Positions 40,076-64,000 of a stretch of 64,000 bases of DNA are shown one piece after another. The notes under the pieces are model-generated. The model did no database searches, was not told the origin of the DNA, and worked only from the letters and a program-made list of their open reading frames with translations. Location: positions 1-64,000 of IMG/VR virus record IMGVR_UViG_3300033182_001261; one strand, written 5' to 3'. This DNA comes from a virus. The first letter of the stretch is position 1. Each line of letters begins with the position of its first letter. Both the position numbers and the translations under genes were made by a program.

Positions 40076-40594
40076 TTAAAATTCTTGTTCAGACATCATA
40101 TACCAAAAGCTCGAACCAACGACACGATTCAGATTGTAAAACCAAACAGGAACGACAACGTTCCCATTCTCTGAATAAGATAGAACACTGTTAGGAACCC
40201 AAAACTCATCAGCAAACTGTGTGGCCATTGCAGTTTCATGGGATACGTGTTCTTTGGTAGACTTCAACATTATATGCATCTGCATTCCTTTGGAAGTCTC
40301 TTTCAGAAATGTTACTGGAATCTTAACACCACCAGCTTTTCGACAAGCAGATTTTGAAAATACGAAAGCCGCACCTTTCGTTGAAGTGCTTGTGAATATG
40401 TTCTCATCAGTGAATATAGCATGATTCACCATCTTTTTCATTTCTGACCAAGGTTCTTCTTCACAATTCGGGAACTCTTCGTTATATATCTTTCCCCCTA
40501 ATCTCGTCAACGTTGACAAAGCAATCCCATCTACATTTCTTTCTTCAATAATTTTCCGATACATTTCCACCATAAAGATTAATCTAGAACTCAT
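40076..40594 (-). CDS. Fourth component of AAA/VWA module, copy A
   Basis: 172 aa, directly downstream of AAA ATPase A. Its C-terminal part, 'ETAMATQFADEFWVPNSVLS' then 'YSENGNVVVPVWF', aligns with the protein downstream of AAA ATPase B (60265: 'DDVWIPKSLLTYTE', 'LPFWW'). This conserved placement after both ATPases argues for a functional partner. The N-terminal ~100 residues are absent from copy B. No known family recognised. Confidence 0.65.
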   Translation of the reverse strand: MSSRLIFMVEMYRKIIEERNVDGIALSTLTRLGGKIYNEEFPNCEEEPWSEMKKMVNHAIFTDENIFTSTSTKGAAFVFSKSACRKAGGVKIPVTFLKETSKGMQMHIMLKSTKEHVSHETAMATQFADEFWVPNSVLSYSENGNVVVPVWFYNLNRVVGSSFWYMMSEQEF

Positions 40595-40630
40595 TCACAA
40601 ACCTTTCACATTTACAACGTTTTTACAATA

Positions 40631-41794
40631 TTAGTTTTCGAACCATGCTTTGGTGTCACCAGATTGGACAACCAATGATTCATCTTCTTCTTCAACTTCT
40701 TCTGTAACTTCTGAAATCTTTCCGTACAGGTCTACAAAACTGTCTCTTGTGATATCATCAAAACGATTCACAGTAAGTTTGATAGATTCTTCAACATCCC
40801 CAAAGATTTTATACGTTTGTAAGATAGAGATTAAACGACGAGTTGTTATCAAATCATTTATCGCACCACTTTCGAAACTATCTCTTGTGATTGTCGCCCA
40901 CTCTACAAGATTTTCGGTGATGACTTCCGCCTCTTCATCGAGAACACCAATTTGATTCTTCCAAAACTTTCTCAATATCTTATTCTCAATTGATTTACTT
41001 GGATAGGATTGTACAACTGTTATCGGGAATCTTTCAAGGAACGACTCATTCAGGAACCCAGTCCCATAAAACTTTCCAAGTTCGTCACCCTGACCCTTTG
41101 TATTAGCAGTAGCAAAGATTGTAAATCCTTCAGCAGGTTTCACCCAACGATTTACTTTCTTTAAGAAAACTCCCTTACCTTCAAGAACTGACTGGATACA
41201 CATTATTTTGTTAGATGCCAAATCAATCTCGTCAAGCAGGAGCACCCCACCCCTTTGCATTGCTTTTACAATTGGTCCATCGAACCATATAGTTTCACCA
41301 TTCACCAGTCGGAACCCACCTAGTAAATCATCTTCATCAGTTTCAATAGTAATGTTGACTCTATACAACTCTCTAGAAAGATTCGCACAAGACTGCTCTA
41401 CCATCATTGTCTTACCATTACCAGAGAGACCAGTAATAAACAATGGGTGAAATACTCTAGACTCAATAATCTTCTCAATAGTCTTGTAGTGTCCCCATGA
41501 GATATAGTTCTCATCTACTTCTGGAGTGAATGCAAGACTTTCGGGAGTTGATTTCAGTTCTTCGGTGTTCTTTGCCTTTTCAGAATTCTTAGAGGGGGAT
41601 TTCGAAGATTTTGGAAATATATATAATCCCCTTTTGGTTGATTTGTCACATAGAGTGATAACCTTTCTCAAAAGTTTGTCAATACTTTCAGAGTCGATAC
41701 CAATCTCTTCCGAAAAACTTCTCAAGTCTTTCCTTGTGACTTCCTTGCCAGAGAATTCCTCTGAGAGCATACCAAAGAACTTTTCAAATTTCAT
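40631..41794 (-). CDS. CobS/MoxR-like AAA+ ATPase, copy A
   Basis: 387 aa. Residues 1-110 are a variable helical domain. The AAA+ core has Walker A 'GLSGNGKTMM', 'ETDEDDLLGGFRLVNG' (CobS-like insert), Walker B 'GGVLLLDEIDLAS', sensor 1 'IFATANTKGQGDE' and Arg finger region 'NESFLERFP'. MoxR/CobS ATPases work with VWA proteins to load metals or remodel complexes; phage copies are often named cobS. About 60% similar by eye to copy B. A VWA partner lies upstream at 46472, separated by other genes. Confidence 0.85.
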   Translation of the reverse strand: MKFEKFFGMLSEEFSGKEVTRKDLRSFSEEIGIDSESIDKLLRKVITLCDKSTKRGLYIFPKSSKSPSKNSEKAKNTEELKSTPESLAFTPEVDENYISWGHYKTIEKIIESRVFHPLFITGLSGNGKTMMVEQSCANLSRELYRVNITIETDEDDLLGGFRLVNGETIWFDGPIVKAMQRGGVLLLDEIDLASNKIMCIQSVLEGKGVFLKKVNRWVKPAEGFTIFATANTKGQGDELGKFYGTGFLNESFLERFPITVVQSYPSKSIENKILRKFWKNQIGVLDEEAEVITENLVEWATITRDSFESGAINDLITTRRLISILQTYKIFGDVEESIKLTVNRFDDITRDSFVDLYGKISEVTEEVEEEDESLVVQSGDTKAWFEN

Positions 41795-41817
41795 ACTTTA
41801 CCTTTTCACTTATACTA

Positions 41818-41846
41818 ATATTAACATATTAGGGATTGTTTGTCAA
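41818..41846 (-). promoter_or_regulatory. Sigma70-like promoter for AAA ATPase A
   Basis: Leftward TTGACA, 17-bp spacer, TAATAT. Weaker -10 than others. Confidence 0.6.
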
Positions 41847-41945
41847 TGAGTTTTTATATTATTTCTAAATATACTTATATGGCTTTGTAAGTTCTGTTTT
41901 CAGCATTTACCTGCGAATAGTAGGTGGGACGAAACCCACTGGTGA

Positions 41946-42129: not shown

Positions 42130-42336
42130 TTAATTTATAACACGTTCTTTTGATTTGTCGTCTTCATCTTCTTCTATTTCATCGGGTATCTCTTCAACGT
42201 TATTGATAGCTTTAAGAACTATCTCTTCTATTATATCATCCGAAACTGATATATGGTTAGAATTAAAGAAGTCACTCCACTCTTTCTTTAAGGACTCCTC
42301 TAATTTTTTTTCAGATTTGGAATTATTTTTTCTCAT
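42130..42336 (-). CDS. Small acidic early protein
   Basis: 68 aa, starting 'MRKNNSKSEKKLEESLKKEW' with an acidic C-terminus (runs of E and D). Start 42336 follows AAAGAGA; a longer frame reaches 42438 but runs into the divergent gene. Function unknown. Confidence 0.5.
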   Translation of the reverse strand: MRKNNSKSEKKLEESLKKEWSDFFNSNHISVSDDIIEEIVLKAINNVEEIPDEIEEDEDDKSKERVIN

Positions 42337-42350
42337 AGTCTCTTTTTTTG

Positions 42351-42358
42351 TATAAATA
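42351..42358 (+). promoter_or_regulatory. T4-late-like TATAAATA box
   Basis: TATAAATA 30 nt before the rightward GTG at 42389, with TAGGGG between. Gives a rightward island in the leftward half its own late promoter. Confidence 0.55.
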
Positions 42359-42388
42359 TATTTATATTCTTTAGTGTAGGGGTTTAAA

Positions 42389-43120
42389 GTGAGATATAAC
42401 ACTAATTTTTCAAGGTTTATAGAAACCATAGGATTCAATCAGTATCCTGATTATTATTGCAAATACAATCAACTAGCTGTTGGTCAAGGGTTCATCATAC
42501 CAAGTTACCAAAACCAAACAGCGGATTTCAAAACTAAAACAGGAGAAGATTTTTGTTTAAGTAGAAAATTCATTGATTTGAAATGTAACATTTTCGTCAA
42601 AACACAGGACGGATTCACACGTTCACATAACGTTGGTAGAAATGTAGGTTTAATGTTAAACTCTTTCAGTTACACTTCCACTAACAACCACTACAAGAAG
42701 TTTAGTAGAAAAGAAATAGATGAGAACCTCCTACTGTTTCCAATCAAGTATGCTTACAATATGAATAAGACTGATATTCATTCCATAAGAATAGGTGATG
42801 TTATAGTTGCTAATTCCTTTTGGGAAGATATCGATAAAAAATATTCAGAGTATTATAATGATTGCCCAGAACAAATAAACCCACACTTCATATGCGGTGA
42901 AGTTGTAGAAATACATAAAAGTAAACTGACACAAACTTGCACATATAAAGTTCAGACCTCCAAAACCGAGAAGAAGTTTTTTGATGTTAAGGTAACACTT
43001 TCGGACATATTTAACTTCAACTCAGCAAACTATACTAGTGTTTACAGATTAGATAAAACTATTAGAAGAGGGCATGTAAAAGTTAAACTCTTCTTGAATA
43101 TGAATTACTGTATGGAATGA
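42389..43120 (+). CDS. Hypothetical protein, rightward island
   Basis: 243 aa, GTG start after TAGGGG. 'NQLAVGQGFIIPSYQNQTAD', 'IDLKCNIFVKTQDGFTRSHN' and 'IHSIRIGDVIVANSFWEDID' give a mixed alpha/beta pattern with no recognised family. A late-like box precedes it, suggesting virion or late function. Ends overlapping the convergent gene by 16 bp. Confidence 0.6.
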   Translation: MRYNTNFSRFIETIGFNQYPDYYCKYNQLAVGQGFIIPSYQNQTADFKTKTGEDFCLSRKFIDLKCNIFVKTQDGFTRSHNVGRNVGLMLNSFSYTSTNNHYKKFSRKEIDENLLLFPIKYAYNMNKTDIHSIRIGDVIVANSFWEDIDKKYSEYYNDCPEQINPHFICGEVVEIHKSKLTQTCTYKVQTSKTEKKFFDVKVTLSDIFNFNSANYTSVYRLDKTIRRGHVKVKLFLNMNYCME

Positions 43121-43668
43121 TAATAGGATTTAAAGTTACTGTATGATCTATACTCTTCTTTTGGAATTTGATCTGAAGGTATGTGCGCATAAAACGTGAC
43201 GTTTTCATATTTCGAGATAACCTCTTTCCATCTAGGAACCCAGTAGGAATTTAAATTTCTTTTTCTAGTTCTAGGGACCAGATTGTCCATCTGACTGTGA
43301 AAGTTGTCTTCATATAAAGAGTTGATTCCCCATAAGTGAATTTCTTTTAAATCACTATAAGTTTGACAAACATAGTCAACTGCTATGAGACCAGAGTTGT
43401 ACCAAGACTTTCTTTTATAAACACCTTCCCATTTTCCATGGAGTTTTTTTGATTGACTAACTTTGTAAGTGTCTGGTGGACACCAAATCCTTTTAAGGTT
43501 TATTTTCTTATCACCTATTATCCTAGCAGGTTGAGGATCTATTATAGAAACTATGTCCCACTCAAATCCATGTTGAGGTATATTACAACAGATAACCAAA
43601 TCATAATTTTCATCATTTCTAGAATAAAGATTATTTGATGATCCATTACCTATCAAGCATATTTTCAT
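43105..43668 (-). CDS. Hypothetical protein, possible sugar-linked enzyme
   Basis: 187 aa. 'MKICLIGNGSSNNLYSRNDE' suggests a Rossmann-like N-terminus, followed by 'YDLVICCNIPQHGFEWDIVS' and 'WYNSGLIAVDYVCQTYSDLK', reminiscent of small phage glycan-related proteins (DUF115-like), but not firm. No ribosome site; a TATAAATA box lies 8 nt before the ATG. Confidence 0.5.
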   Translation of the reverse strand: MKICLIGNGSSNNLYSRNDENYDLVICCNIPQHGFEWDIVSIIDPQPARIIGDKKINLKRIWCPPDTYKVSQSKKLHGKWEGVYKRKSWYNSGLIAVDYVCQTYSDLKEIHLWGINSLYEDNFHSQMDNLVPRTRKRNLNSYWVPRWKEVISKYENVTFYAHIPSDQIPKEEYRSYSNFKSYYHSIQ

Positions 43669-43676
43669 AATAAAGA

Positions 43677-43684
43677 TATTTATA
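43677..43684 (-). promoter_or_regulatory. TATAAATA box just before ATG
   Basis: Leftward T4-late-like box 8 nt upstream of the ATG at 43668, so the predicted mRNA has almost no leader. Confidence 0.5.
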
Positions 43685-43967
43685 CTAAACTTAACTTTCT
43701 GATAGCCAGTTCTTTAGAATATCTATCTTTATCATTTATCGACTTGAACAATTTTTTATTTTCTTTGATTCTAAATTTCACACTTGGATTCAAAGACTTA
43801 ATCTTTTCTAAGAAAGTTCTAGCATCGAAATCCAAATCTAGAAAAACTTTAGGTCCTTCAATTCTAGATTGAGATGAGATTTCATCTTGAATATTAAATT
43901 TGAAAACATCCTTTAATTTAACTTCTAACCAAGAGTGACCCATTTCATAAAAAATATTAAATTCCAT
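43680..43967 (-). CDS. Small 'GHxWLEV' polyvalent-type protein
   Basis: 95 aa. 'EMGHSWLEVKLKDVFKF', 'DEISSQSRIEGPKVFLDLDF' and 'DARTFLEKIKS' match a small domain found in phage and plasmid polyvalent proteins (the G-H-x-W-L-x-V ... D-x-D-A-x-x-F pattern). Start 43967 follows AAAGGAG and a promoter at 43997-44025. Role unknown; may be linked to anti-restriction or establishment. Confidence 0.6.
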   Translation of the reverse strand: MEFNIFYEMGHSWLEVKLKDVFKFNIQDEISSQSRIEGPKVFLDLDFDARTFLEKIKSLNPSVKFRIKENKKLFKSINDKDRYSKELAIRKLSLV

Positions 43968-43996
43968 ATTTGTCTCCTTTTTATCCTTATATAATA

Positions 43997-44025
43997 AGTA
44001 TAACAAATGTGAACTACTATGTCAA
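43997..44025 (-). promoter_or_regulatory. Sigma70 promoter with conserved leader
   Basis: Leftward TTGACA, 17-bp spacer, TATACT, then TATTATATAAGG and AAAAAGGAG. Drives 43967. Confidence 0.82.
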
Positions 44026-44041: not shown

Positions 44042-44323
44042 TTAATCTATTCTTAAATTGCTCCATTTCTTCAACTTCTCTCTTTTAGATTTGGAATTCT
44101 TTATCAATTCATTTTTGTTTATTAGTCCATATTCTTGTAAAAGGTCAATCATACAAAGCAAGTCTCCGATTTCTCTTGAAAGACTTCCAACCTCTTCATC
44201 ATTTCTTCCGAATCTAATAATCTTAGAAGCTTCTACAGTAGCTTCTGCGCACTCCTCCATAAAGATAACTAACAGTTCTTCTTTCTCATCAATCGAAATA
44301 TTTTCAGTAGCATACTTTTTCAT
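44042..44323 (-). CDS. MazG-like nucleotide pyrophosphohydrolase
   Basis: 93 aa, all-alpha. 'VIFMEECAEATVEASKIIRF' carries the E-E-x-x-E metal motif and 'SREIGDLLCMIDLLQEY' the E-x-x-D motif of MazG-like NTP-PPases. Such phage enzymes hydrolyse dNTPs or alarmones. AAGGAG upstream. Confidence 0.78.
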   Translation of the reverse strand: MKKYATENISIDEKEELLVIFMEECAEATVEASKIIRFGRNDEEVGSLSREIGDLLCMIDLLQEYGLINKNELIKNSKSKREKLKKWSNLRID

Positions 44324-44339
44324 ATGAACTCCTTTTGAT

Positions 44340-44347
44340 TATAAATA
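44340..44347 (+). promoter_or_regulatory. TATAAATA box just before ATG
   Basis: T4-late-like box ending 4 nt before ATG 44352 (10 nt before ATG 44358); no ribosome site. Predicted leaderless late transcript. Confidence 0.5.
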
Positions 44348-44351
44348 TTAA

Positions 44352-44762
44352 ATGATTATGATTAAACTTCTACTCGCTTTGCTTATAAAACACGCTATAT
44401 GTGATTTGTATTTACAAAACAAGAGAAACCCTACGGATAAATCAAAATACATAGGTGAATGTCACACTCACTATCTTGACCATTTTTTACTAACCCTTTT
44501 AGTTTGTTACATCTTCTTGATTCCACTTGAAATCTGTTTTGTATTATCTTCAATTGATTACATTGCTCACTGGCACATAGATTACACAAAAACTAAAATA
44601 ATAAGATTTTTTAGAATTAACTTGAACAGTATAGTTTTTTGGTTATTACAAACCATCGATCAAATATTACATTACTCAACTTATTTCCTAATAGTGTATA
44701 TAGTTCAGAACAACTTATCATTTCATCACATCTTCAAAAAATTTATTTCTCCTCTTTTCTAA
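44352..44762 (+). CDS. DUF3307-like membrane protein
   Basis: 136 aa, three or four hydrophobic segments. 'KHAICDLYLQNKR', 'HTHYLDHFLLTLL', 'SSIDYIAHWHIDYTK' and 'LQTIDQILHYSTYF' keep the H/D/Q pattern of the DUF3307 membrane family. ATG 44358 is an alternative start. Rightward gene in the leftward half, with a late-like box. Function unknown. Confidence 0.6.
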   Translation: MIMIKLLLALLIKHAICDLYLQNKRNPTDKSKYIGECHTHYLDHFLLTLLVCYIFLIPLEICFVLSSIDYIAHWHIDYTKTKIIRFFRINLNSIVFWLLQTIDQILHYSTYFLIVYIVQNNLSFHHIFKKFISPLF

Positions 44763-45098
44763 AATTTCAAATTCTTTACTTTTAGGAAAAATCACCTTTA
44801 AGAATCTGTATCTATCATCTTCAATTTTAGTAAACTTCATTCCTTTGAAATTTGTTAAAAATATAGTCACATGAGTTCTTTTATAATAAACACTCAACTT
44901 AAAATAATTAACCATCTCAATCAATCTCTGTAAATCAAAAGTTTTCGGTATGATTATAAACTTTTCTGATTTTTCACAAGCTTCTGAAATTTTCTTAAGA
45001 ACTGTCAAATTGTGTTTGTCAAAAATTAGAGATTTCTGCTCTTCTTCCATTTCATCTATTTTACTGGAAAGTTTCTTAAAAAAATTCTTAGGTAACAT
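44718..45098 (-). CDS. Hypothetical protein
   Basis: 126 aa, helical and charged ('KKLSSKIDEMEEEQKSLIF') with a beta-like centre. Overlaps the convergent DUF3307-like gene. No ribosome site; a TATAAATA box lies 5 nt before the ATG (see leaderless finding). Confidence 0.5.
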   Translation of the reverse strand: MLPKNFFKKLSSKIDEMEEEQKSLIFDKHNLTVLKKISEACEKSEKFIIIPKTFDLQRLIEMVNYFKLSVYYKRTHVTIFLTNFKGMKFTKIEDDRYRFLKVIFPKSKEFEILEKRRNKFFEDVMK

Positions 45099-45103: not shown

Positions 45104-45111
45104 TATTTATA
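45104..45111 (-). promoter_or_regulatory. TATAAATA box 5 nt before ATG
   Basis: Leftward T4-late-like box with a 5-nt gap to ATG 45098. Confidence 0.5.
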
Positions 45112-46417
45112 ATTTTTCACCATCATCAAAACCTCTAAAAGTTTTAAATCTAGGGAACCTAAGAGAGTATGTTCCGTCTTGATTTTGTGATATTGAATCA
45201 GCTCGAACTTCAACAACCTTTCCGATAAGAGTTTCTCTAGCATTCCAGAAGTCTTCTCTATCTTTATCGGTTAACCCACTTCCGACATTGACTTTTATTT
45301 TCTTACCATCATCAACTCCATGACATATTAATGCTCCGAGTCTACCCTTATTCTTTCCTGTACCTTCTTCGAGACCCACAACATCTAAAGAAACTTCAAT
45401 AAAAGGTTTCATTTTCAACCAAGAACTGGATCTATCACATTCATACGGTCCCATAGTATCTTTTATCATAACTCCTTCATAACCACCATCAACTGCTTGT
45501 TTATTGATTTCAGAAAACCTATTCTGACCTTCATCGGTATCTAAGTCAACTTCTTCCCAATCTAAAGCAGTTACATGTTCTAAAACGTCTTCATTTTCTT
45601 CGATCCAATCTTTTAGTATATTACTCCTAACCTTCTGTGGAATCCCCCAATATCCCTTCTTAAAATGTTTCAGAGGAAGAGTATCAAATAGATGTAGTAC
45701 GGCATCTTCCAAATTAACATTAGATTTTCTGTGAACTTGTTTCATCAGGTCTTGGAAATTAGAACTCATCACTTCACCGTCCAAAACAAAAGGTTCTTGG
45801 TCAGGTTTCTTGTCAAAACATTTTTGTATTTCCGAAGCAATAGTTTTGAAGTTATGAAACTCCTTACCATTTCTACTAAGCATTTTAACACCAGATTTTT
45901 CAACAATGACTATAACCCTAACTCCGTCCAGTTTAACTTCTACTTGTTTTTTTCCTTTCATTTTGTTTTGGTGGTTTGATGAGTCTTTCGCTAACTGACA
46001 TCTAAAAACAGGAACAGTATACTGAGGATACTTCTTAGCAACCTTATTGACAGTCTTTTCACTTACACCGCACTTCAAATCTTTGGTTAAAATTCTTCTG
46101 TAAAAATAATTCCATTCATCCATTTTACATTTTTCTGACAAAGATTTTACAGCGTCTCTTGCATCATTACCTGTCAACTCTCTTAAAGAAAGTTTATTTG
46201 CCAATTCAACAAATTCATTCCAAGTGATACCTTCACCGTCAGAAGTGGATTTAGGAACCTGTTTGATTCCATAAGTGACCATAGGATCCAATGCTAGTCG
46301 AACTCCTTGAAAGAATTCGTCCAAGCCCTGACTCATATAGTTTTCAAGGATACTTTCTTTTTCGTTTCTACTATTTGTTCCTTCTAACTCTTTTACAATT
46401 TCTGAATAGTTTTTCAT
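45107..46417 (-). CDS. ATP-dependent DNA ligase
   Basis: 436 aa. Adenylation motif K-x-D-G in 'VEVKLDGVRVIV' (Lys ~162), 'MLSRNGKEF', 'VLDGEVMS', 'YEGVMIKDTMGPYE' and 'SSWLKMKPF' give the ordered nucleotidyltransferase motifs; the C-terminal OB part ends with 'VEVRADSISQ' and 'LRFPRFKTF'. Seals Okazaki fragments and nicks as T4 gp30 does. Lies inside the copy-A AAA/VWA locus, between VWA and AAA genes. Confidence 0.92.
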   Translation of the reverse strand: MKNYSEIVKELEGTNSRNEKESILENYMSQGLDEFFQGVRLALDPMVTYGIKQVPKSTSDGEGITWNEFVELANKLSLRELTGNDARDAVKSLSEKCKMDEWNYFYRRILTKDLKCGVSEKTVNKVAKKYPQYTVPVFRCQLAKDSSNHQNKMKGKKQVEVKLDGVRVIVIVEKSGVKMLSRNGKEFHNFKTIASEIQKCFDKKPDQEPFVLDGEVMSSNFQDLMKQVHRKSNVNLEDAVLHLFDTLPLKHFKKGYWGIPQKVRSNILKDWIEENEDVLEHVTALDWEEVDLDTDEGQNRFSEINKQAVDGGYEGVMIKDTMGPYECDRSSSWLKMKPFIEVSLDVVGLEEGTGKNKGRLGALICHGVDDGKKIKVNVGSGLTDKDREDFWNARETLIGKVVEVRADSISQNQDGTYSLRFPRFKTFRGFDDGEKL

Positions 46418-46471: not shown

Positions 46472-47659
46472 TTAAGACAAAAAAGTTACCAACTCTGAAA
46501 GAATTTTTTTTGATAGTTTCATGGAAACATGATTGTTAGTGAATTTGTTTTTAATCTGGTTTAGACTCTTTTTAGATTTTTCTGGAATCATTATCTCATT
46601 CTCATAATTTTCCATCTCGAAATTGGCAACAGAAAAATAAGCATCATATCCTCTATAATCATATTTTGTCTGGTCATTCGAGCAACCATTTATAAAAAAA
46701 CATATAGTGTTTCCACCAACACATTTTTTATAGAACTTTAAGATTGATTCTGTATCTAAAACCTTTGTTCTGAAATATTGACCAGAAAGAGGATCATAGG
46801 AATTTATATTGATAAGTCTTTCAGAATTTCCCCTCCAAAGGTCATAACTAGCACCACCAGAACTTTTATTGCTTCTAGGGTCACTTAGTGATGACCTATT
46901 AGATTCTCCGTCGGTTAAAACTACTGTGTTTAGAACTTCTATTTTAAAATCCTCTTTGAACTTTAATGATATCTGTCTAAGGACAAGTAAACTATCGTTT
47001 AGGGGTGTTGTTGATGTTGGTATATCACCTTGATGGGCCAACTTAGAAGAACTCTTATCATATGACCCAGCACTTATATATCCAGTTTTCTTAGAGAAAT
47101 CAACACCATCTTTACCAGAAGATACTGCTAGCAGATATGTACACATCATCTCATGGTCATTTTTATTCATTTCAGAGTTTAGCCATTCTCTCATATTGAA
47201 ATATCTTCCGAATTTCAAGCAACTCTTTTTATTTAAATATTTCAAATCACTAGTAGTGTCTATATATCTTTCACTCATTGAATTAGAATCATTGAATCCT
47301 AAGACCTTGTATTTAATTCCAACTTTTCTACAAAATTCTGTTAATAAGATTGACTGTTTAATGGAATCTGAATACTTCTTTCCTCCCATTGAAGATGAAC
47401 AGTCCACCAACATTATAACTCCGTGATTTTTGCCATCTTTGTTTATTTCAGATTTTCGAAATATGTTTTCACTCCATTTAAACTTATGAAGTGACTGAGT
47501 GTTTATAACCCCTGTTTTATTAAACTGAGTTTTTCTAAATTGTTCTGCTTTCTTTCTTCTCTCAAATTCAAGAGCCATGTGGTTAAGTATGGAAGAGTTT
47601 TTTGATTTGAAGTTTGCCCAATCTTTCCTAGTCTCAATCAACCACTGATTCTTTTTCAT
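46472..47659 (-). CDS. VWA-domain protein, copy A
   Basis: 395 aa. MIDAS motif 'IMLVDCSSSMGG' (D-x-S-x-S), a later 'TSTTPLNDSLLVLR' (MIDAS Thr) and 'VVLTDGESN' (MIDAS Asp). N-terminal ~80 residues are basic and helical. The order and motifs match copy B (61896). Together with the HEVSH protein it corresponds to the two halves of phage CobT-like proteins. It begins 3 bp after the upstream gene. Confidence 0.85.
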   Translation of the reverse strand: MKKNQWLIETRKDWANFKSKNSSILNHMALEFERRKKAEQFRKTQFNKTGVINTQSLHKFKWSENIFRKSEINKDGKNHGVIMLVDCSSSMGGKKYSDSIKQSILLTEFCRKVGIKYKVLGFNDSNSMSERYIDTTSDLKYLNKKSCLKFGRYFNMREWLNSEMNKNDHEMMCTYLLAVSSGKDGVDFSKKTGYISAGSYDKSSSKLAHQGDIPTSTTPLNDSLLVLRQISLKFKEDFKIEVLNTVVLTDGESNRSSLSDPRSNKSSGGASYDLWRGNSERLININSYDPLSGQYFRTKVLDTESILKFYKKCVGGNTICFFINGCSNDQTKYDYRGYDAYFSVANFEMENYENEIMIPEKSKKSLNQIKNKFTNNHVSMKLSKKILSELVTFLS

Positions 47660-47661: not shown

Positions 47662-48693
47662 CTATTTCTTTCTAAAGTTGTCGGAACGCAATTCCCTAAG
47701 GTCAACTTTCGAACCCCTTTTCATTATCTTGTAAACTTGTTTTAGAACTTCTTTTGAGTCTGTGTATACATACCCTTCCATATCAATTACAGGAACCTCA
47801 GAACTGAAATGAATTTTACTAGTAGCATTTTCTTCATTAACTAACTTACCTTCATTATCTCTGAAATTTTTATCAGTTATAGACTCTGGTAAATTTTGTG
47901 ATTCTTCACCTGCCTTATTCGTGGAACTAGACTTTTGATTTTGTTCCTTATCGGATTTTTCTGAGGAGGGGTCATCTTCACCTCCATCAGAATCATTTCC
48001 TTCTCCTTGAGAGTCTTCCGATTCCTGTTCAGATTTTTGACTTGAACCGCTTTCATCCTCGGAACCATCTTTCGATTTCCCTTGACTCTTTATAGTATCA
48101 TCACTTTCCTGTTTCTTATCTAACTCATCTTTACAATATTCAAAAAGTTCTTTTGCCAACTTGACAACATCATCCCAAGTTTTTAACTTGTTCAATTTTT
48201 CTTCGAAGTGTCTCTCTTCGTTTTTTATATTTACATTTGATGCTAGTTTACCTAACTTTGCTCTAACATTCAATCTATCTATCAAGAGCATGTTATCAAG
48301 TTCTTCTTGGGAGTATTCTTTAATACCGAACATGTCCTCATCAAAAAGTTTTTTATATCCTGTTATATAAGACTTTTTGAGTCCTGGAAATTTTCTCTGA
48401 ATCATTTTCTCGATTCTGGCATCCTCAACAATATTCAAAAACCCTTTGAACTTTTCATCCTGCTCTTCGTCTGTTGCTGAATGATACCCTTCAACAGGAG
48501 TGTTTAGTGCGTGTGAAACTTCATGTGATATTAAGAGGTCATAAACATCCTCACCTAAATCTACATAGTCTGGGAGATAGAGGATTCTATTTTCAATATC
48601 AAATGCTGCAGTTCTATAATCTCCATGGACTATATCAACATTTTCAGTTGCCATTAGTTTAGCAAGAGTTTCTTTATAATCTAATTTTTTCAT
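47662..48693 (-). CDS. HExxH peptidase-like partner of VWA protein, copy A
   Basis: 343 aa. 'DVYDLLISHEVSHALNTP' has an HExxH zinc-site pattern and 'LNIVEDARIEKMIQRKFPGL' provides a likely third-ligand glutamate. The C-terminal ~120 residues are very acidic and Ser-rich ('SEDESGSSQKSEQESEDSQG'), as in CobT. Begins 'MKKLDYKETLAKLMATENVD'. No ribosome site; CATAAATA ends 6 nt before the ATG. Whether it cleaves protein or only binds metal is unknown. Confidence 0.8.
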   Translation of the reverse strand: MKKLDYKETLAKLMATENVDIVHGDYRTAAFDIENRILYLPDYVDLGEDVYDLLISHEVSHALNTPVEGYHSATDEEQDEKFKGFLNIVEDARIEKMIQRKFPGLKKSYITGYKKLFDEDMFGIKEYSQEELDNMLLIDRLNVRAKLGKLASNVNIKNEERHFEEKLNKLKTWDDVVKLAKELFEYCKDELDKKQESDDTIKSQGKSKDGSEDESGSSQKSEQESEDSQGEGNDSDGGEDDPSSEKSDKEQNQKSSSTNKAGEESQNLPESITDKNFRDNEGKLVNEENATSKIHFSSEVPVIDMEGYVYTDSKEVLKQVYKIMKRGSKVDLRELRSDNFRKK

Positions 48694-57382: not shown

Positions 57383-58732
57383 TTAAAAAAAACTTTCCAA
57401 ACTAAAAGTTTTTTCAACTTCGAAAAATTTAGACCACATATCTTCCCCATTTTGGACAAATTTAGGATCGGCAAAAGCAGGAATGCTGTGTTCTATCCCA
57501 CAAGGAATTCCTAATGCTAAATCAATATAGTCTTGTGCTATTTTCTTTCTATCAAACTGCTTAATCATTTCAAAGTTATTGTTTGCTATTCTCTCATACT
57601 CTTCTTTTGTGATTGTCAAAAAATCGTTAATAGCATCTGCGTATTGTTTTGGAGTATAGTCATACTTCAACATCAAATAATTTTCGTCAGGAGTAAATAA
57701 AGACCCTACCCCATCCTCATTACACGATATACCAAGATTGACAGCAATAGGAACTGTTCCCATTCTCATTGCTTCAACCAAAGTTCTGTTGAAATGTTCT
57801 CCGTAAGTTTTAGACCAAGTTGAATCAATAAAGAACATTGACTCTCTCAATATTGAATCTCTTCTATTTTCTGATATGAATCCGATATATTCCATACCGT
57901 AGGTCAAAGCATTGTCCCATATCTTATTCCCTAGAAGTTCTTGCGAAGCATCTGGGTCTCTTTGTAAGGAGCAGTAATACTCTTCCTTACATTTGTCTTT
58001 GGACGTCATATATGCCCTCTCAATACCGTCCCCACCAACAATAACATCACAATAATTCAGATGAGGGACACAAGAAACTAAATCATCAACCCTTTTCATT
58101 TTCTTAAAAGTCTGGAGTGAAAAAATTTGTCTCTTACGATTCCCAAAATTTATATCTGGATTCACATCACTAATATCTTGAGGATTCAGAATCATTGACC
58201 TAGGAATATCCATAAACTCTGCCGACTTATAAGCAGAATCGTGGACACAAGCAACACCAGAAAGACTATTCTTGAATTTATAAACCCAAGGGTACAATTT
58301 CTGTAAGTTGCCATCATGGACTATCATAACCTGTTTTGATTTCACACTTTCAATCATTGGCAACCAAGTTGTATTCTTTTTGGAACTCTTATTCTTGAAT
58401 CCGAATATACTTTCCCATATTACAATATCATGCTGATTAGCCATTCGAACAAAATCATCCACACTATCTTGATTGAGAAAGGAATAATAGTTTGTCATCC
58501 ACCCTTTACCTTGATGGACAGGAATTCCTGTTCCTGGACCGATTTCATATTCGTTCTGTAAAAGTTCATCAACATTTTGAATATTCACAGTTTTAGGTTT
58601 CTGTGTTGATGGTTTTAGGAAAGCGAAAGTGACTTCATGCCCCAAATCTTTTAATCCTGCTATTAACTGCTCTGTGTGATTTATAATGCCACCATAGTTG
58701 TAAAATTGGTGGACTGGAACTAATATTTTCAT
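57383..58732 (-). CDS. Glycosyltransferase, GT4-like (GT-B)
   Basis: 449 aa. N-terminal 'MKILVPVHQFYNYGGIINHT' donor/acceptor loop, middle 'QIFSLQTFKKMKRVDDLVSC', and C-terminal 'GTVPIAVNLGISCNEDGVGS' of group 1 transferases, though the usual E-x7-E is loose ('NRTLVEAMRMG'). It overlaps the dioxygenase gene upstream by 4 bp, so the two are coupled. In phages this pairing usually means sugar addition to a hydroxymethylated base. Confidence 0.8.
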   Translation of the reverse strand: MKILVPVHQFYNYGGIINHTEQLIAGLKDLGHEVTFAFLKPSTQKPKTVNIQNVDELLQNEYEIGPGTGIPVHQGKGWMTNYYSFLNQDSVDDFVRMANQHDIVIWESIFGFKNKSSKKNTTWLPMIESVKSKQVMIVHDGNLQKLYPWVYKFKNSLSGVACVHDSAYKSAEFMDIPRSMILNPQDISDVNPDINFGNRKRQIFSLQTFKKMKRVDDLVSCVPHLNYCDVIVGGDGIERAYMTSKDKCKEEYYCSLQRDPDASQELLGNKIWDNALTYGMEYIGFISENRRDSILRESMFFIDSTWSKTYGEHFNRTLVEAMRMGTVPIAVNLGISCNEDGVGSLFTPDENYLMLKYDYTPKQYADAINDFLTITKEEYERIANNNFEMIKQFDRKKIAQDYIDLALGIPCGIEHSIPAFADPKFVQNGEDMWSKFFEVEKTFSLESFF

Positions 58733-60189
58733 AAACCAAGAAATCCTTCAAGTGTTGGTGATTCTTCTTTTAGCGCTTCGGGATGATACTTCTCTAATAT
58801 ATCACTTCCCATCTTTTCTGTCAAGTAGTCATACCATTCTTGCTCATACCACATATTAGGAGATACTCCATTCCAACTTTCTCTCCATAAAGGATGATTT
58901 TGATTCATTCTTCTATCATCCACAAATTGTCTTCTTGTCTTTTCATATTCCCATGAACCTAACACCTTCATATCTTCACGGAAATAAAAGACCAAGGACA
59001 TTCTCAAAAAATCTTCCTCACCAGAATCAGGTGCTTCTATTGGAGTATTAGCATGTATAATCCTCATATTGTCTATTAGGAGTAAATCTCCTGGACGAAC
59101 ATTGATGGCAGCACGAACTTCTGGAGTGACAAGATATCCACCTTTCCAGTTTTTACCTTCTTTTGTCACAACCGTCAGATTGGAAAAACCATCATTCAAA
59201 GAACCTGCATCACGATGACATGCCATTCTAGCATTTCTATCAGCAGAAGTAGTATTCACTGTTATAGTTGTAAATACTGTATCCTCACCTATTAGAAACT
59301 TTTTATCTAGTTCATTAGTATATCCATTCTGGACACCCCATCGAACAGGCATTAATCTCTTAAATTCGGAGTTCAATTTTCTAGCAAATGGGAAAGACTT
59401 TGCGAACTTTTCCATATTCCTTTCTGTGTAAGCAACGGCTCTGCCATATGGTATTCTAGGATACCTGCCATAATACCCTGCGATACCAGACCATATTGGA
59501 TTCGCATAAACAGTTATGGAAATATATTTCTTCTTAAACTCTTCAATATACTTCTTTGCTTCTTGCACATCCATACTTTTCAACAAAGGGATAAGTTTAT
59601 TATCAAAGAATCCAACATACCTATTTCTCATAAGTCTGTCTTTATTGTCAGGATCACCAAAATCACGTGCAACCCTATAACCAATCCAAGTCATATACCT
59701 TGCTTTTGAGGAATCAATATCACCAGATTCATGCTTTTTCCTGATAGATTCTAGGACATCCGAACCATCCAAAGATTTCGGTTGACCATCCTCAAAATAT
59801 TTTATAACTTCTGCTTCATATGGAGAAACATAATCTCTCAGACTGTTTTCGTGACCATTCCCTGCAGCATATCCCCGATTATCAGAAACTACCGCAGCAT
59901 CATAAAGTCCTTCATAAGCACCTTTCTGCTCTTCTTCTGTAAAGACATTTTTTCTAAACTTAAATGCTACCCTATCTTCTGTCAAAGAATCTTTATCCCA
60001 AATATCATTTGATGGTAAATAAAAATCAGCGTCAGAATCTATCAGAATATCATAAAAAGATTCATCAGGAAAATTACCGAGAACAGTTTCATCCTTTTTT
60101 ATGAATTCTGCCACATAAACATCTTGACCCTCATCACCTTTGAATTTTTTCCAGACGTTTCCGTTAATTTCAATTGTTTCTATTTTCAT
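58729..60189 (-). CDS. TET/JBP-like 2OG-Fe(II) dioxygenase
   Basis: 486 aa. The core carries 'TVFTTITVNTTSADRNARMA' followed by 'CHRDAGSLNDGFSNLTVV' (iron ligands H-x-D), 'KGGYLVTPEVRAAINVRPGD', 'MRIIHANTPI' (second His) and 'DFLRMSLVFYFRED' (2OG-binding Arg). This is the TET/JBP pattern for oxidising a methyl group on pyrimidines in DNA. The start at 60189 follows TATAAT by 6 nt, so the longer GTG start at 60207 would lie inside the promoter. DNA as substrate is inferred from the family and the coupled glycosyltransferase. Confidence 0.8.
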   Translation of the reverse strand: MKIETIEINGNVWKKFKGDEGQDVYVAEFIKKDETVLGNFPDESFYDILIDSDADFYLPSNDIWDKDSLTEDRVAFKFRKNVFTEEEQKGAYEGLYDAAVVSDNRGYAAGNGHENSLRDYVSPYEAEVIKYFEDGQPKSLDGSDVLESIRKKHESGDIDSSKARYMTWIGYRVARDFGDPDNKDRLMRNRYVGFFDNKLIPLLKSMDVQEAKKYIEEFKKKYISITVYANPIWSGIAGYYGRYPRIPYGRAVAYTERNMEKFAKSFPFARKLNSEFKRLMPVRWGVQNGYTNELDKKFLIGEDTVFTTITVNTTSADRNARMACHRDAGSLNDGFSNLTVVTKEGKNWKGGYLVTPEVRAAINVRPGDLLLIDNMRIIHANTPIEAPDSGEEDFLRMSLVFYFREDMKVLGSWEYEKTRRQFVDDRRMNQNHPLWRESWNGVSPNMWYEQEWYDYLTEKMGSDILEKYHPEALKEESPTLEGFLGL

Positions 60190-60195
60190 ATCAAT

Positions 60196-60224
60196 ATTAT
60201 ACACCATAAGTTAAATCATGTCAA
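60196..60224 (-). promoter_or_regulatory. Consensus sigma70 promoter, leaderless geometry
   Basis: Leftward TTGACA, 17-bp spacer, TATAAT, then six nt (ATTGAT) to the ATG at 60189. No room for a ribosome site. Confidence 0.8.
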
Positions 60225-60264: not shown

Positions 60265-60585
60265 TCATTCAGTGGTATCTGTCAGGTTTCTAAGTTGGGT
60301 AGGAGTGAGAGGAGAGAGAACTCTGGAGTTGTTACCACTTAGACCTTTAGTATTTTCTTTTGTTTTCTTAATCCACCAGAAAGGTAGAGATAATAAATTC
60401 ATTTTTTCTGTATACGTTAACAAACTTTTAGGAATCCAAACATCATCAAAGAGGAAAGCTCTTGGAGTTTCTCTCATAGATTTTTCTTGTAAAACCTCTT
60501 TTGTTACAGGTAAAACAACATATTGTTCCGACTTCTTTGATGCTCTTCTCTTTTTTTCAATAACATAATAATCTACTACATTCAT
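60265..60585 (-). CDS. Fourth component of AAA/VWA module, copy B
   Basis: 106 aa. 'LFDDVWIPKSLLTYTEKMNL' with 'LPFWWIKK' aligns with the C-terminal part of 40076. Start 60585 after AAAGG, 19 bp downstream of the AAA gene. Lacks the N-terminal domain of copy A. Followed by a strong terminator. Function unknown; consistent position supports partnership with the ATPase. Confidence 0.65.
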   Translation of the reverse strand: MNVVDYYVIEKKRRASKKSEQYVVLPVTKEVLQEKSMRETPRAFLFDDVWIPKSLLTYTEKMNLLSLPFWWIKKTKENTKGLSGNNSRVLSPLTPTQLRNLTDTTE

Positions 60586-60604
60586 AATAGTCAAACCTTT
60601 CAAA

Positions 60605-61819
60605 TTATTCCGAATCCTCGGACTCTTCTGTATCATCGGTTTCTGCAAACTCAATAGCAGAAACCTTTTTGAATAAATCAATAAAACTCATTTTAGTTAC
60701 ATCATCAAATCTGTTTAGATTCAACTCAATAGACTTTTGAACATTACCAAATATACTATATGCTTTCATTATGAAAACCAACCTTCTAGTAGTAATAAGG
60801 TCATTTAAGACCGATTCATTGTAAGAGGATCTAGTTATATTTGCCCAAGCAACCAAATGTTCAATCAAAGTATTGACTTCCTCAGAAGACTCTACTCCTA
60901 GACTATCCCAAAACTTAGATAGGATTTTAGTCTCCACTCCCTTTTTGGGATATGATTGTTCAACAGTCACAGGAAATCTTTCTAGAAATGCTTCATTCAA
61001 GAATCCTGTTCCAACAAACTTCCCATGCTCATCACCCTGACCCTTAGTGTTAGCAGTTGCGAACACTTGAAAACCGTGAGCAGGTTGGACGAACTGGTTT
61101 ATTTTCTTCAAGAAAACTCCCTTACCTTCAAGGATTGGTTGAAGACACATAATGTCATCAGATGCTAAGTCAATCTCATCAAGAAGAAGCACAGCACCTG
61201 TTTTCATTGCCTTTACGACTGGGCCGTCAAACCAAACAGTTTGACCATCTACTAAACGAAATCCCCCTAGCAAATCGTCCTCATCAGTTCTGCAGGTGAT
61301 ATTAACACGATACATATCACGACCATTCTTGGCACATGCTTGCTCAACCATCATTGTCTTGCCATTACCAGAAAGACCAGTGATGAAGATTGGGTAAAAC
61401 ATTTTAGACTTGATGACAGCATCAACAGTCTTATATTCCCCCCATCGAACATAGTTTTTATCGACATTAGGAACATAACTGATTTCAGATGTTTCTGCGT
61501 TTGGAGTCACAACTTCTTTGACAGGAGTTTTGGAAACTTTTTTAGAAACTTTTGGTTTCGAAGCAGATTTGCCATTACTCAGGAAGTTATCAAAAACTGA
61601 CACTTCTGGGATTTGATATTCTCCTCTACCCACTTTATTTGCCCCTTCCACTCCCCAAAGAGTAGCAATCATATCATTGATTTGAGGTTCAGTTAACGTG
61701 CCATCAGACCTTCTAGCAATATCTTTAAGATATGCTGACTTATAGGTATCTCCAGCAGAAACCTCATTGAATAATTCATTTACAAAGTTTTTACAATAAT
61801 TTAGTTTTTTCTCTCTCAT
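60605..61819 (-). CDS. CobS/MoxR-like AAA+ ATPase, copy B
   Basis: 404 aa. Variable N-terminal domain (~1-140), then Walker A 'GLSGNGKTMM', 'RTDEDDLLGGFRLVDG', Walker B 'AVLLLDEIDLAS', sensor 1 'VFATANTKGQGDE' and 'NEAFLERFP', nearly the same as copy A. Start 61819 after AGGAG; the longer frame crosses the promoter at 61862-61890. Located directly between VWA copy B and the fourth component, the undisturbed form of the locus. Confidence 0.87.
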   Translation of the reverse strand: MREKKLNYCKNFVNELFNEVSAGDTYKSAYLKDIARRSDGTLTEPQINDMIATLWGVEGANKVGRGEYQIPEVSVFDNFLSNGKSASKPKVSKKVSKTPVKEVVTPNAETSEISYVPNVDKNYVRWGEYKTVDAVIKSKMFYPIFITGLSGNGKTMMVEQACAKNGRDMYRVNITCRTDEDDLLGGFRLVDGQTVWFDGPVVKAMKTGAVLLLDEIDLASDDIMCLQPILEGKGVFLKKINQFVQPAHGFQVFATANTKGQGDEHGKFVGTGFLNEAFLERFPVTVEQSYPKKGVETKILSKFWDSLGVESSEEVNTLIEHLVAWANITRSSYNESVLNDLITTRRLVFIMKAYSIFGNVQKSIELNLNRFDDVTKMSFIDLFKKVSAIEFAETDDTEESEDSE

Positions 61820-61861
61820 GATAATCTCCTGTATGTTTGTTTTTTCTACCCTTATATTATT

Positions 61862-61890
61862 AGTATAACAGATACTGAACCCTATGTCAA
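61862..61890 (-). promoter_or_regulatory. Sigma70 promoter for AAA ATPase B
   Basis: Leftward TTGACA, 17-bp spacer, TATACT, then AATAATATAAGGG. Confidence 0.82.
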
Positions 61891-61895
61891 CCCTT

Positions 61896-62978
61896 TTATG
61901 AAATAATATCAATAAATTTCGAAAGAAGCACTTTTTGATTATTTTTGTTAATATTATTAGTGTTAAACTTTTTCTGCAACTCTTCTACAGAATCAATATG
62001 TCCATCAAATTTAGTCTTTTTACTTGAACCATAAACATTGTCATAACTAAAAGTGTAATAATTATCATAACCTAGATAGTTTTCTTTTATATGAATAGGT
62101 TCTTCTTCATACCAGTAATTCACTATGTTAAAACTGATTACATTTCCACCGACAACTTTTTTATAGAAATTCAACAAACCTTCAAGACTGTTGGCATTGG
62201 AAGTCCTATAAACAGATTTTGTTAAAGGGTCAAATGAAGATAGTTTAGTATAGGAACCTTGGCCATTTGAAGAAACGAATCGTGTAGGATTCGAATCTCC
62301 GTCAGTTAGAGTGATAGTGTTTAATATATCAATATTTTCATCTTTTTTGAATTTCAAAGCCACTTGTCTCAAAAGAAGAATGCTGTCAAGAAGTGGAGTA
62401 GATGAGTTTGGACCATCGTGCTGATTAATTGACCTATGCTTTTTTGTTTTGAATAACATATAAGTGGACATAAAGTCATGCTGACTCAGTGATTGTTCAT
62501 GACTAAACCACTCTCTTAATACTGGGAGATAGTTAAGTTCTAGATGTTTTTTAGAACCACAATTTTTATATTCAATCTCTCCACCTCTTGCTGAATATCT
62601 ACCATCACTAAACCCCATAACTTTATATTTGATTCCTGCTTTTCTACAAAACTCAACCAACATAAGAGTTTGCTTAATAGTATTCTCAAACTTCTTCAAT
62701 TGTTGCATAGAACCTGAACAATCAACAAGCATAATCATTCCGTGATTTTTACCCTCAGGAACTATTTTTCTGGTCTTGAACAGTTTTTCATTCCACTTGT
62801 AAGTGTGAAGAATTCTCTCGTTGATAACACCTGTATCTTTTTTTCTTATTCTTTTTGATATACTGGCAGACTTTTTTCTTTCGAAATCTAAAACCATCTT
62901 AGTTATGGATTGTTTATTTTCTTTTTGGAATTTTTTCCATTTCTTATTCCACTTGATATACTCTTGTTGATTTCTCAT
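61896..62978 (-). CDS. VWA-domain protein, copy B
   Basis: 360 aa. MIDAS 'IMLVDCSGSMQQ', 'SSTPLLDSILLLRQ' and 'TITLTDGDSN' parallel copy A throughout, including a basic N-terminus. AGGAG and own promoter upstream. Metal-dependent protein binding is expected from the intact MIDAS. Confidence 0.86.
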   Translation of the reverse strand: MRNQQEYIKWNKKWKKFQKENKQSITKMVLDFERKKSASISKRIRKKDTGVINERILHTYKWNEKLFKTRKIVPEGKNHGMIMLVDCSGSMQQLKKFENTIKQTLMLVEFCRKAGIKYKVMGFSDGRYSARGGEIEYKNCGSKKHLELNYLPVLREWFSHEQSLSQHDFMSTYMLFKTKKHRSINQHDGPNSSTPLLDSILLLRQVALKFKKDENIDILNTITLTDGDSNPTRFVSSNGQGSYTKLSSFDPLTKSVYRTSNANSLEGLLNFYKKVVGGNVISFNIVNYWYEEEPIHIKENYLGYDNYYTFSYDNVYGSSKKTKFDGHIDSVEELQKKFNTNNINKNNQKVLLSKFIDIIS

Positions 62979-63010
62979 TTTTAGTCTCCTTTTTCTACCC
63001 TTATATTAAT

Positions 63011-63039
63011 AGTATAACCTATATCCGAAACTTTGTCAA
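63011..63039 (-). promoter_or_regulatory. Sigma70 promoter with conserved leader
   Basis: Leftward TTGACA, 17-bp spacer, TATACT, then ATTAATATAAGGG and AAAAAGGAG. Drives VWA copy B. Confidence 0.85.
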
Positions 63040-63045
63040 GAGTTT

Positions 63046-64000
63046 TTACCAATTATATTCTTCTGCTTTTTTCATCCAACCCCTAACCTCCTTTTCTATT
63101 TTTCTCCAATCATCATAGAAATACTTTTCCTCAACCACTGGCAAATCTAATGAAGTGCTTTGTTGCCAAGACCTTACAGATTCTTCCCTATTATAAAGTT
63201 CATCCTCTTTATCTCTAAAATTTTTATCAGTTTCTGAAAAAGGTAGGTCATTATCAAAGTCATTTTTATTTGGACCACTGTTCTCTTCATTTAATGATTG
63301 AGGTTCACCACTTTCCTGTTTTTCCTCTGTTTTTTCATTTTGTTCATCTTCACCAGAGTCACTGAATTTAATATTCTGAGATTTATCTGTTGAGGATTTT
63401 GGTTCACCTTCTCCATTTTCCTGCTTCTGCTTTTCTTCATCCTTTCTCTTCTTTTCTTCTTTACAGTATTCGAAGAGTTTTTCTGCCAGAGATACAACAT
63501 CTTCCCAAGTTTTGAGATTTGACATTTCTTTAATATATTCTCTTTCCTCTTGTGTAAATTCAACTCCGCAGTTGAGTTCTCCTAATTTCGAATGTAGGTT
63601 GAGTCTATCAATCAACAACATTCCTTGAAGTTCATCCTGACTCATATTCCGAACTCCGAAGAAATCATTATCAAAAAGTTCTTTGTAACCTATCTTGAAT
63701 GAACTTCTCAGTCCAGGAAACTTATCTTGTATCATCCTTTCAATTCTAGCATCTTCAACAACATTCAGAAAACTTTTGAAGTTTGCTCCTTTTTCGTCTA
63801 TTGCTGTGTGCCATCCCTCTTTCGGTGTATTGAGAGCATGTGAAACTTCATGCCCTATTAAAAGGTCATAAACATTTTCAGAAAGGTTTGCGAATTCTGG
63901 AAGAAACAGAGTTCTGGACTCCAAATCAAATGCGGCTGTTGGGTAATGTTGTCTATGAACAACAGAAATATTTTCCTGAGACATTAACTTACCGACGATA
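63046..64000 (-). CDS. HExxH peptidase-like partner of VWA protein, copy B (5' end outside)
   Basis: The ATG at 63984 is not the true start: upstream codons to the window edge read 'IVGKL', aligning with 'TLAKLM' of copy A, so the gene continues past 64000. 'DVYDLLIGHEVSHALNTP' and 'LNVVEDARIERMIQDKFPGL' repeat the copy-A zinc-site pattern; the acidic linker ('SDSGEDEQNEKTEEKQESGE') is also kept. C-terminus ends 'RGWMKKAEEYNW'. Confidence 0.82.
   Translation of the reverse strand, partial: IVGKLMSQENISVVHRQHYPTAAFDLESRTLFLPEFANLSENVYDLLIGHEVSHALNTPKEGWHTAIDEKGANFKSFLNVVEDARIERMIQDKFPGLRSSFKIGYKELFDNDFFGVRNMSQDELQGMLLIDRLNLHSKLGELNCGVEFTQEEREYIKEMSNLKTWEDVVSLAEKLFEYCKEEKKRKDEEKQKQENGEGEPKSSTDKSQNIKFSDSGEDEQNEKTEEKQESGEPQSLNEENSGPNKNDFDNDLPFSETDKNFRDKEDELYNREESVRSWQQSTSLDLPVVEEKYFYDDWRKIEKEVRGWMKKAEEYNW

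Follow-up and report, generated by a model that had tools for sequence, protein, structure and literature searches.

What kind of machine do two similar sets of neighbouring genes in a single phage genome encode, and does it belong to vitamin B12 synthesis, the role generally assumed for viral cobS? The question is raised by a 64,000 nt stretch of virus DNA, referred to here as the window, which comprises positions 1 to 64,000 of the IMG/VR record IMGVR_UViG_3300033182_001261 and is part of a 77,326-base virus record (G000). An earlier note, made from the sequence alone, had described two leftward loci in it, A and B, each with the gene order HExxH protein, VWA protein, AAA+ ATPase and fourth protein, and all eight open reading frames (ORFs) were found in this order and on this strand. 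The start of locus B at 60265 was confirmed; its proposed end at 64000 was not, since the HExxH gene reaches 64023, beyond the end of the window. The module is real and conserved, and what is new is that it represents a split, four-gene and doubled form of the known phage cobST pair. The genes of the two loci are:

47662..48693, minus strand: locus A HExxH protein (zincin-like, CobT N-half), 343 aa, with an acidic tail; phrog_459 positions 1-327, E 1.4e-78
46472..47659, minus strand: locus A VWA protein with a metal ion-dependent adhesion site (MIDAS; CobT C-half), 395 aa; phrog_459 positions 342-641, E 1.2e-57
40631..41794, minus strand: locus A CobS-like AAA+ ATPase, 387 aa; phrog_249, E 1.4e-102
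40076..40594, minus strand: locus A fourth protein (A4), 172 aa, with a C-terminal WVPNS motif; weak hidden Markov model (HMM) match to the B family
63046..64000 in the window, to 64023 of the record, minus strand: locus B HExxH protein, 325 aa; phrog_459, E 1.1e-73
61896..62978, minus strand: locus B VWA/MIDAS protein, 360 aa; phrog_459, E 3e-59
60605..61912, minus strand: locus B CobS-like AAA+ ATPase, ORF of 435 aa with a likely ATG start at 61819; phrog_249, E 3.6e-105
60265..60681 (ORF), minus strand: locus B fourth protein, with a WIPKS motif; adjoins the AAA gene downstream in the related contigs L008-L012

In comparisons with the PHROG profiles, in both loci the HExxH and the VWA protein were assigned to a single family, phrog_459, annotated as "peptidase" (all four, E 1.2e-57 to 1.4e-78), with the HExxH proteins covering positions 1 or 15 to 327-328 and the VWA proteins beginning at position 342 (A) or 336 (B), and both AAA proteins matched phrog_249 "porphyrin biosynthesis" (CobS). 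Judged by these matches, the HExxH and VWA proteins are the halves of one known phage protein, which together with the AAA protein makes up the widespread phage cobST pair. Passages in Liu et al. 2021 (PMC8651126) state that the cyanophage "peptidase" is usually a misnamed CobT, that cobST occurs widely among tailed viruses and that cobT is split into two ORFs in the haloarchaeal virus HHTV-2. On the basis of the PHROG assignments and this published split and peptidase naming, the four-gene module amounts to a known pair, one subunit of which is split and to which one gene has been added. The idea of a novel four-gene system with a new partner therefore had to be given up, because its HExxH and VWA proteins correspond to one protein of the standard pair. 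In the phrog_459 form, HExxH and VWA are on one chain; in A, B and the relatives L009-L012 they are separate ORFs, and this recurrence in both loci and four complete relatives rules out a sequencing error as the cause of the split.

The standard phage pair (PHROG 249 and 459), which belongs to the core genome of the T4-like cyanophages (Kyanoviridae), shares with the window the AAA, HExxH and VWA domains and their order, whereas the window has separate HExxH and VWA genes, a fourth gene after the AAA gene, and two copies instead of one place each. In five Kyanoviridae regions, the cobS- and cobT-like genes were side by side with 0-3 small genes between them. The split cobT of HHTV-2 likewise has its VWA domain on its own ORF, but this is an archaeal virus, the respective passage mentions no fourth gene or second copy, and the likeness is one of description only.

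Similar AAA proteins were encoded at 523 places in 523 of 50,697 phage records and similar HExxH parts at 462 places in 462 of these records, one each. Among 89 sources (88 loci and the window, in redundant sets that include near-identical contigs), 58 had a fused HExxH-VWA gene, 4 were fully split, the window was split with two AAA genes and 26 were cut at the end of the stretch; one of the latter, L008, is of the split type by sequence, with only the last 36 residues of its HExxH gene inside the stretch examined. The co-inheritance of the module, on which the earlier proposal depended, was borne out, as the four genes were kept in the order of locus B in all five related contigs (L008-L012). 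A sister record (IMG 2823592041, G004; 136,879 bases), which matches many ORFs of the present record at about 30% to 92% identity, has a B-type copy only (VWA protein 64% identical to that of B and 35% to that of A). A search of twelve records, mostly fragments, with the A-type AAA protein gave one match each, the sister record included. When viral contigs were scanned with the VWA and AAA proteins of A type, single-protein queries that reach close relatives only, no A-type copy came up, and the locus A VWA protein had no match in plasmids. That A-type copies are common was ruled out by these contig scans, and another A-type search returned three fused relatives and one cut relative. What is unusual here is the split of the CobT-like chain, the fourth gene, and the presence of two copies, found only in the present record among those examined.

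How did one phage come to carry both loci? Each pair of A and B proteins had been called clearly paralogous. The HExxH, VWA and AAA proteins of the two loci have global identities of 49.5%, 41.8% and 54.2%, respectively, and the relationship is weak for the fourth pair; duplication could not be told apart from acquisition from a related phage. Trees were calculated for the AAA, HExxH and VWA proteins, including five split relatives for AAA and VWA but four for HExxH, as L008 is cut. In all of them, A, B and the split relatives were on one side of a branch, with support of 100/98 (AAA), 99/99 (HExxH) and 100/100 (VWA), and A was placed outside the group of B and the relatives, with support of 100/99, 100/99 and 100/100, respectively; the branch of A was flagged as long for AAA, and for VWA a meeting of long branches was flagged. 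According to the simplest interpretation of these sequence trees, the split arose once, before A and B diverged. Locus B would be the standard copy in the lineage of the present phage, and locus A an extra, earlier-diverged copy interrupted by inserted genes. As proposed, the insertions, all between the VWA and AAA genes, comprise an ATP-dependent DNA ligase, a short MazG-like protein and ORFs without assigned function in Pfam and PHROG:

45107..46417, minus strand: ATP-dependent DNA ligase, between the locus A VWA and AAA genes; PF01068; phrog_114, E 3.6e-99
44042..45098, mixed strands: three-ORF cassette inside locus A, with the members 44718-45098 (minus), 44352-44762 (plus) and 44042-44323 (minus, MazG-like); phrog_4856, phrog_2470
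42130..44006, minus strand: further inserted ORFs at 43680-44006, 43105-43668 and 42130-42438; no PHROG match at E 0.01, and for two of them sub-cut-off Pfam matches only

In the four relatives that reach that far (L009-L012), the three-ORF cassette lies upstream of the B-type module and not inside a locus such as A (4/4). We read locus A as the result of a duplication or an import, followed by rearrangement. The chance is somewhat short of even that locus A was taken up by recombination from an unsampled related phage, and not duplicated internally, and has since been kept, or is decaying, without a distinct role. It speaks for such an import that all three trees place A outside B and the split relatives, yet the sister record lacks A, and that A is broken by a cassette that adjoins the B-type module in 4/4 relatives. 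The position of A is, on the other hand, less sure because of its long branch, no A-type copy was seen elsewhere within the reach of the queries, and its catalytic motifs are intact. That A and B serve two distinct targets, as had been suggested, is unproven.

The alignments showed the HExxH and N..ED.R motifs, the MIDAS residues D, S, S, T and D, and the Walker A, Walker B and sensor motifs of the AAA protein to be intact in both A and B, so that neither locus looks dead; at the level of sequence, this argues against decay. The residues H61, E62 and H65 of the HExxH motif together with N91, E94, D95 and R97 were invariant in 48/48 fused relatives, as were the MIDAS residues, and the former were kept in both loci. 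Both loci show the combination of HExxH and a downstream acidic motif that is typical of zincins, and the E of N..ED.R may provide the third zinc ligand. The putative metallopeptidase domain DUF2201_N gave a weak match in only one of the 48 fused members (E 0.0022). The Walker A/B and sensor motifs and the MIDAS pattern DxSxS-T-D found in A and B are those of the class of MoxR AAA proteins with a VWA partner, to which NorQD, RavA-ViaA and CbbQO belong.

In an AlphaFold model of a fused relative (L065; mean predicted local distance difference test score, pLDDT, 76), a mostly helical N-terminal domain is followed by a disordered region at 198-271, then by a short structured segment and finally by the VWA part. 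This VWA part, a protein of the fused type and not of the window, best matched the VWA domain of NorD in the nitric oxide reductase activation complex NorQD (9qh6 chain G, Z 15.9, root mean square deviation (rmsd) 4.9, 264 aligned residues), tied with the midasin MIDAS domain (8ql1, Z 15.4, rmsd 3.1, 215 aligned); the search covered mainly residues 330-730 and says nothing about the zincin part. NorQ/NorD resembles the phage type in its MoxR-type AAA protein and VWA/MIDAS partner and is the closest solved VWA fold, but NorD, as described in parts of PMC13036017, has its N-domain and VWA domain on a single chain, in contrast to the window, and the text of the NorQD paper PMC9976466 lacks the words "hexxh" and "metallopeptidase". 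According to passages in these two papers, a VWA finger sits in the AAA pore and the MIDAS residues are required for an active client, and PMC13036017 proposes that NorQD remodels its client via VWA rotation and linker stretching.

On balance we favour the reading that each locus encodes a split CobS/CobT-like machine of the NorQD kind, with AAA+, MIDAS and zincin components, which remodels a client protein; a corrin is a less likely client than a protein involved in DNA replication or nucleotide metabolism. In such a machine, the CobS-like subunits would form a MoxR-type AAA+ ring into which the VWA protein plugs, gripping the client via its MIDAS metal site, and the HExxH protein would be the former N-terminal domain of the VWA chain with its own acidic tether. 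ATP hydrolysis would shift the VWA and HExxH domains against each other and thereby remodel the client, which the zinc site may additionally cut or metallate. The VWA proteins of A and B both begin at residue 326 of the fused reference (alignment to the L065 model), and the chain seems to have been divided behind the acidic linker and directly in front of the long helix preceding the VWA domain. The HExxH protein thus seems to have kept the linker and, in addition, a short segment that in fused relatives is part of the VWA side, through which it may re-dock non-covalently.

The view that the client belongs to replication draws on the genomic neighbourhood of the relatives. The sliding clamp gene gp45 was located just downstream of the AAA gene in 61 of the 64 testable fused-type loci, that is, those with at least 4.6 kb downstream of the AAA gene, counting a gp45 start within 4.6 kb on the same strand. 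Over all 113 fused-type loci, gp45 was present in 99, and of the other 14, 11 did not extend far enough and 3 lacked it at this place, gp45 being at 6.6 kb in one of these. In a more distant set, a gene for DNA polymerase III alpha occupied the corresponding place in 4/5 loci, after two of seven (L151 and L152) had been dropped for lack of an AAA match at the cut-off; the neighbour in A3Wally (L151) is not CobT-like by eye, and the annotated neighbours of L152 show no polymerase. These counts suggest a role near replication.

Several observations weigh against the reading we favour. The module of the split lineage, unlike the phage cobST pair elsewhere, is distant from the clamp genes (beside them in 0/3 testable loci), so that the argument from location holds for the relatives only; in the sister record, gp45-44-62 lies at 82.7-84.8 kb, some 68 kb from the module (10.2-14.1 kb), and the split lineage no longer keeps the clamp-side position. 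Clamp adjacency is, moreover, for the most part explained by vertical inheritance of gene order among T4-like genomes, some contigs of the set being near-identical. Alignment of the HExxH proteins with the fused reference ends at different residues (366 and 409, against 327-328 in the PHROG profile), which makes the counterpart of their C-terminal tails in the fused chain unsure, and the split would remove the covalent link on which the stretching model for NorQD relies. The HExxH residues were lost in homologues from an Acinetobacter plasmid and the Pseudomonas phage phiK7B1, hence the zinc site is not needed everywhere, and it may be ancestral but, to judge from these sequences, dispensable; it was kept in distant homologues from a Rhizobium phage, GodonK, ICP2 and an Ochrobactrum phage. 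The present phage and its sister carry a B12-dependent ribonucleotide reductase (RNR), which fits a B12 role. Finally, we infer complex formation, remodelling and the client, in contrast to the identities, motifs, split, gene order and phylogeny, which were observed directly.

A bolder version of this reading would be that cobS and cobT of marine phages generally encode no cobaltochelatase but a replication-linked AAA+/MIDAS/zinc-peptidase machine that clears or cuts DNA-bound proteins or remodels the clamp or polymerase, and that it was split, equipped with a fourth factor and doubled for two clients here; we regard this as rather unlikely in its full extent. A comparison for a replication-linked machine that removes or cuts proteins on DNA is p97 with SPRTN.

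Could the module instead be what its annotation says? As a viral cobaltochelatase helper, the phage CobS/CobT would, together with CobN of the host, load cobalt into the corrin and so raise the B12 supply for a B12-dependent RNR; the first part of this was proposed for tailed viruses by Liu et al. 2021 (PMC8651126). The B12-dependent reductase pointed out previously does exist in the window, as a class II enzyme (PF21995, phrog_367) with an intein domain, and the class II RNR of the present phage is the one fact that favours a B12 role, shared by the sister record:

9603-11972, plus strand: class II (B12-dependent) ribonucleotide reductase; intein splicing domain at residues 473-556 (PF14890)

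The reductase frame of the sister record is ~160 residues shorter than that of the present phage.

The AAA proteins also resemble CobS, matching the model TIGR01650 at E 4.6e-25 and 2.8e-22, but their 88.5 and 79.3 bits are far below its cut-off of 558.55, and the CobT model TIGR01651 had no match at E 0.001 in the present or the sister record (0/2). The aerobic cobaltochelatase CobS/CobT shares with the phage type the combination of AAA and VWA, an acidic linker and a related [VE].AR.E helix. Genuine CobT, however, has no HExxH at the corresponding place (0/21, the sequences behind TIGR01651 matches, of the class of a Rhodobacteraceae genome and best of 42 matching genomes), whereas HExxH was present in 82/82 phage-type proteins that reach the site; these derive from 87 matches, of which five were left out because they start after the motif at a contig edge (first residues checked for two). 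As hhalign aligned only the [VE].AR.E block of the phage and genuine CobT N-termini (E 0.025, probability 2%), the correspondence rests on spacing and inspection by eye; no HExxH occurred in the 54 aligned columns of the 21 genuine CobT sequences. Genuine CobT is partnered by CobN, and, in agreement with the earlier note, no CobN-like large subunit was found in the record; the search for CobN (PF02514) was negative in all 18 carrier records, some of them incomplete and all of them phage records, so that the CobN of a host, which could serve instead, was outside its scope. The small subunit of class I RNR, which needs no B12, was found in 10 of the 18 carriers, and the other 8, the present phage included, had a class II-type match (E 3e-41 or better), though none of the 18 had one above the RTPR cut-off; both these and the clamp counts are for carriers only, without a control set of phages lacking cobST. 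The B12 metal loading that the earlier note had offered as an alternative is further weakened by the absence of CobN, the HExxH contrast and the class I enzymes, and we consider the cobaltochelatase helper unlikely. With the clamp-side location of the fused-type loci added, these are our grounds for doubting the B12 label of phage cobST. In the passages concerned of the open-access literature (PMC8651126, PMC3037559, PMC13036017, PMC9976466, PMC9301287, PMC7159879), the HExxH contrast is not described and the clamp/polymerase neighbourhood is not used as functional evidence; no search was aimed at doubled cobST.

The RNR itself might be the client, if the module were a maturation or reactivation chaperone that inserts or exchanges its metal cofactor (iron/manganese in class I, cobalamin in class II), a mechanism that metal insertion by NorQD could supply by analogy. 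All 18 carriers have an RNR (class I small subunit in 10, class II-type match in 8). Large phages commonly encode RNR, however, which weakens this argument, as do the lack of a non-cobST control set and of class II matches passing the RTPR cut-off, and the RNR gene is not next to the module in the present record or its sister; such a chaperone seems quite improbable. Least probable of all is a host-directed metalloprotease machine for takeover or anti-defence, in which the zincin cuts host proteins delivered by AAA/VWA and A and B aim at different ones, since its two supports, the intact zinc motif in both copies and the low identity of the B module proteins between the sister phages (51-67% versus 91% for the next gene, 56867-57226), are offset by neighbours that are equally diverged (dNMP kinase 62%, nuclease 68%), so that the divergence of the module is not special, by the lack of a match to PADLOC families (PADLOC does not test counter-defence), and by the clamp-side position in relatives, which fits a replication role better.

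The fourth protein of locus B most likely starts at an ATG near 60585 and has ~106 aa, the 138-aa ORF opening at an upstream TTG. The fourth gene was located directly behind the AAA gene in all five related contigs. The fourth proteins of A and B are 29.8% identical over 84 aligned residues, and an HMM of the B family, searched against the ORFs of the loci, matched A4 at E = 6.7e-4, with ~54 residues around the WxPxS motif aligned; A4 was the sole match beyond the B family up to E 1, and it sits at the expected position. No relatives of A4 were found in named phages or viral contigs. A structure model of the fourth protein (pLDDT 67, core 75-84) matched no known fold (best Foldseek E 0.5; best VIA-align Z 3.2), and PDB sequence searches with the profiles of the fourth and the fused proteins gave no significant match. 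We rejected the small protein after CobS in cyanophages as a counterpart, as it is unlike by eye and the HMM of the fourth family had no match in other loci. Two distant proteins picked by motif match PHROG 8389, small phage WxPKS proteins that share the pattern DxVWVPKS...W with the fourth protein; the fourth proteins of window B and L011, in contrast, do not match this profile and extend past the motif. One distant protein of the PHROG 8389 type has relatives in 60 phage records, and the names of overlapping genes, among the 20 matches listed, were hypothetical, dCMP deaminase, primase, holin and membrane protein. For now, the fourth protein may be regarded as a small WxPKS-type phage domain, an assignment that is unproven.

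CobST-like genes are also found on plasmids. Large plasmids of Acinetobacter and Methylobacterium and phages of Rhizobium and Pseudomonas (L116, L117, L149, L150) have in common a block of CobT-like/VWA, CobS-like, small genes and DNA polymerase III alpha, with a class I RNR in 3/4 and a class II match in the fourth, and these plasmids may be phage-plasmids. In the Methylobacterium plasmid (L117, 2104-3492), a VWA protein has the acidic stretch and the VWA part and lacks the N-terminal HExxH part, which may mean that the CobT-like chain is divided in this plasmid as well.

Other genes of the window include the following:

48845-49420, minus strand: HD-domain phosphohydrolase (PF13328), adjoining locus A; two tandem copies in the sister record
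57383-60207, minus strand: glycosyltransferase beside a TET/JBP-type 2-oxoglutarate oxygenase, between the locus B fourth gene and the next conserved gene
51724-53394, plus strand, opposite to its neighbours: putative subtilisin-type serine peptidase, recognized by eye
4496-6430, plus strand: FtsH-like AAA protease of the phage (AAA and Peptidase_M41), also matched in the sister record

The glycosyltransferase and oxygenase look like a DNA base modification pair; they had no match in the sister record, and L009-L012 offer no space for such a pair.

Among viral "metabolic" genes, cobS is one of those reported most frequently, and it was detected at 75% of Baltic water stations, as stated in a part of PMC9301287. 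The HExxH contrast, the absence of CobN, the B12-independent reductases and the clamp/polymerase position make its B12 label testable as well as doubtful. The split and doubled form presented here offers biochemists subunits that are separate by nature, and its two diverged copies lend themselves to comparison.

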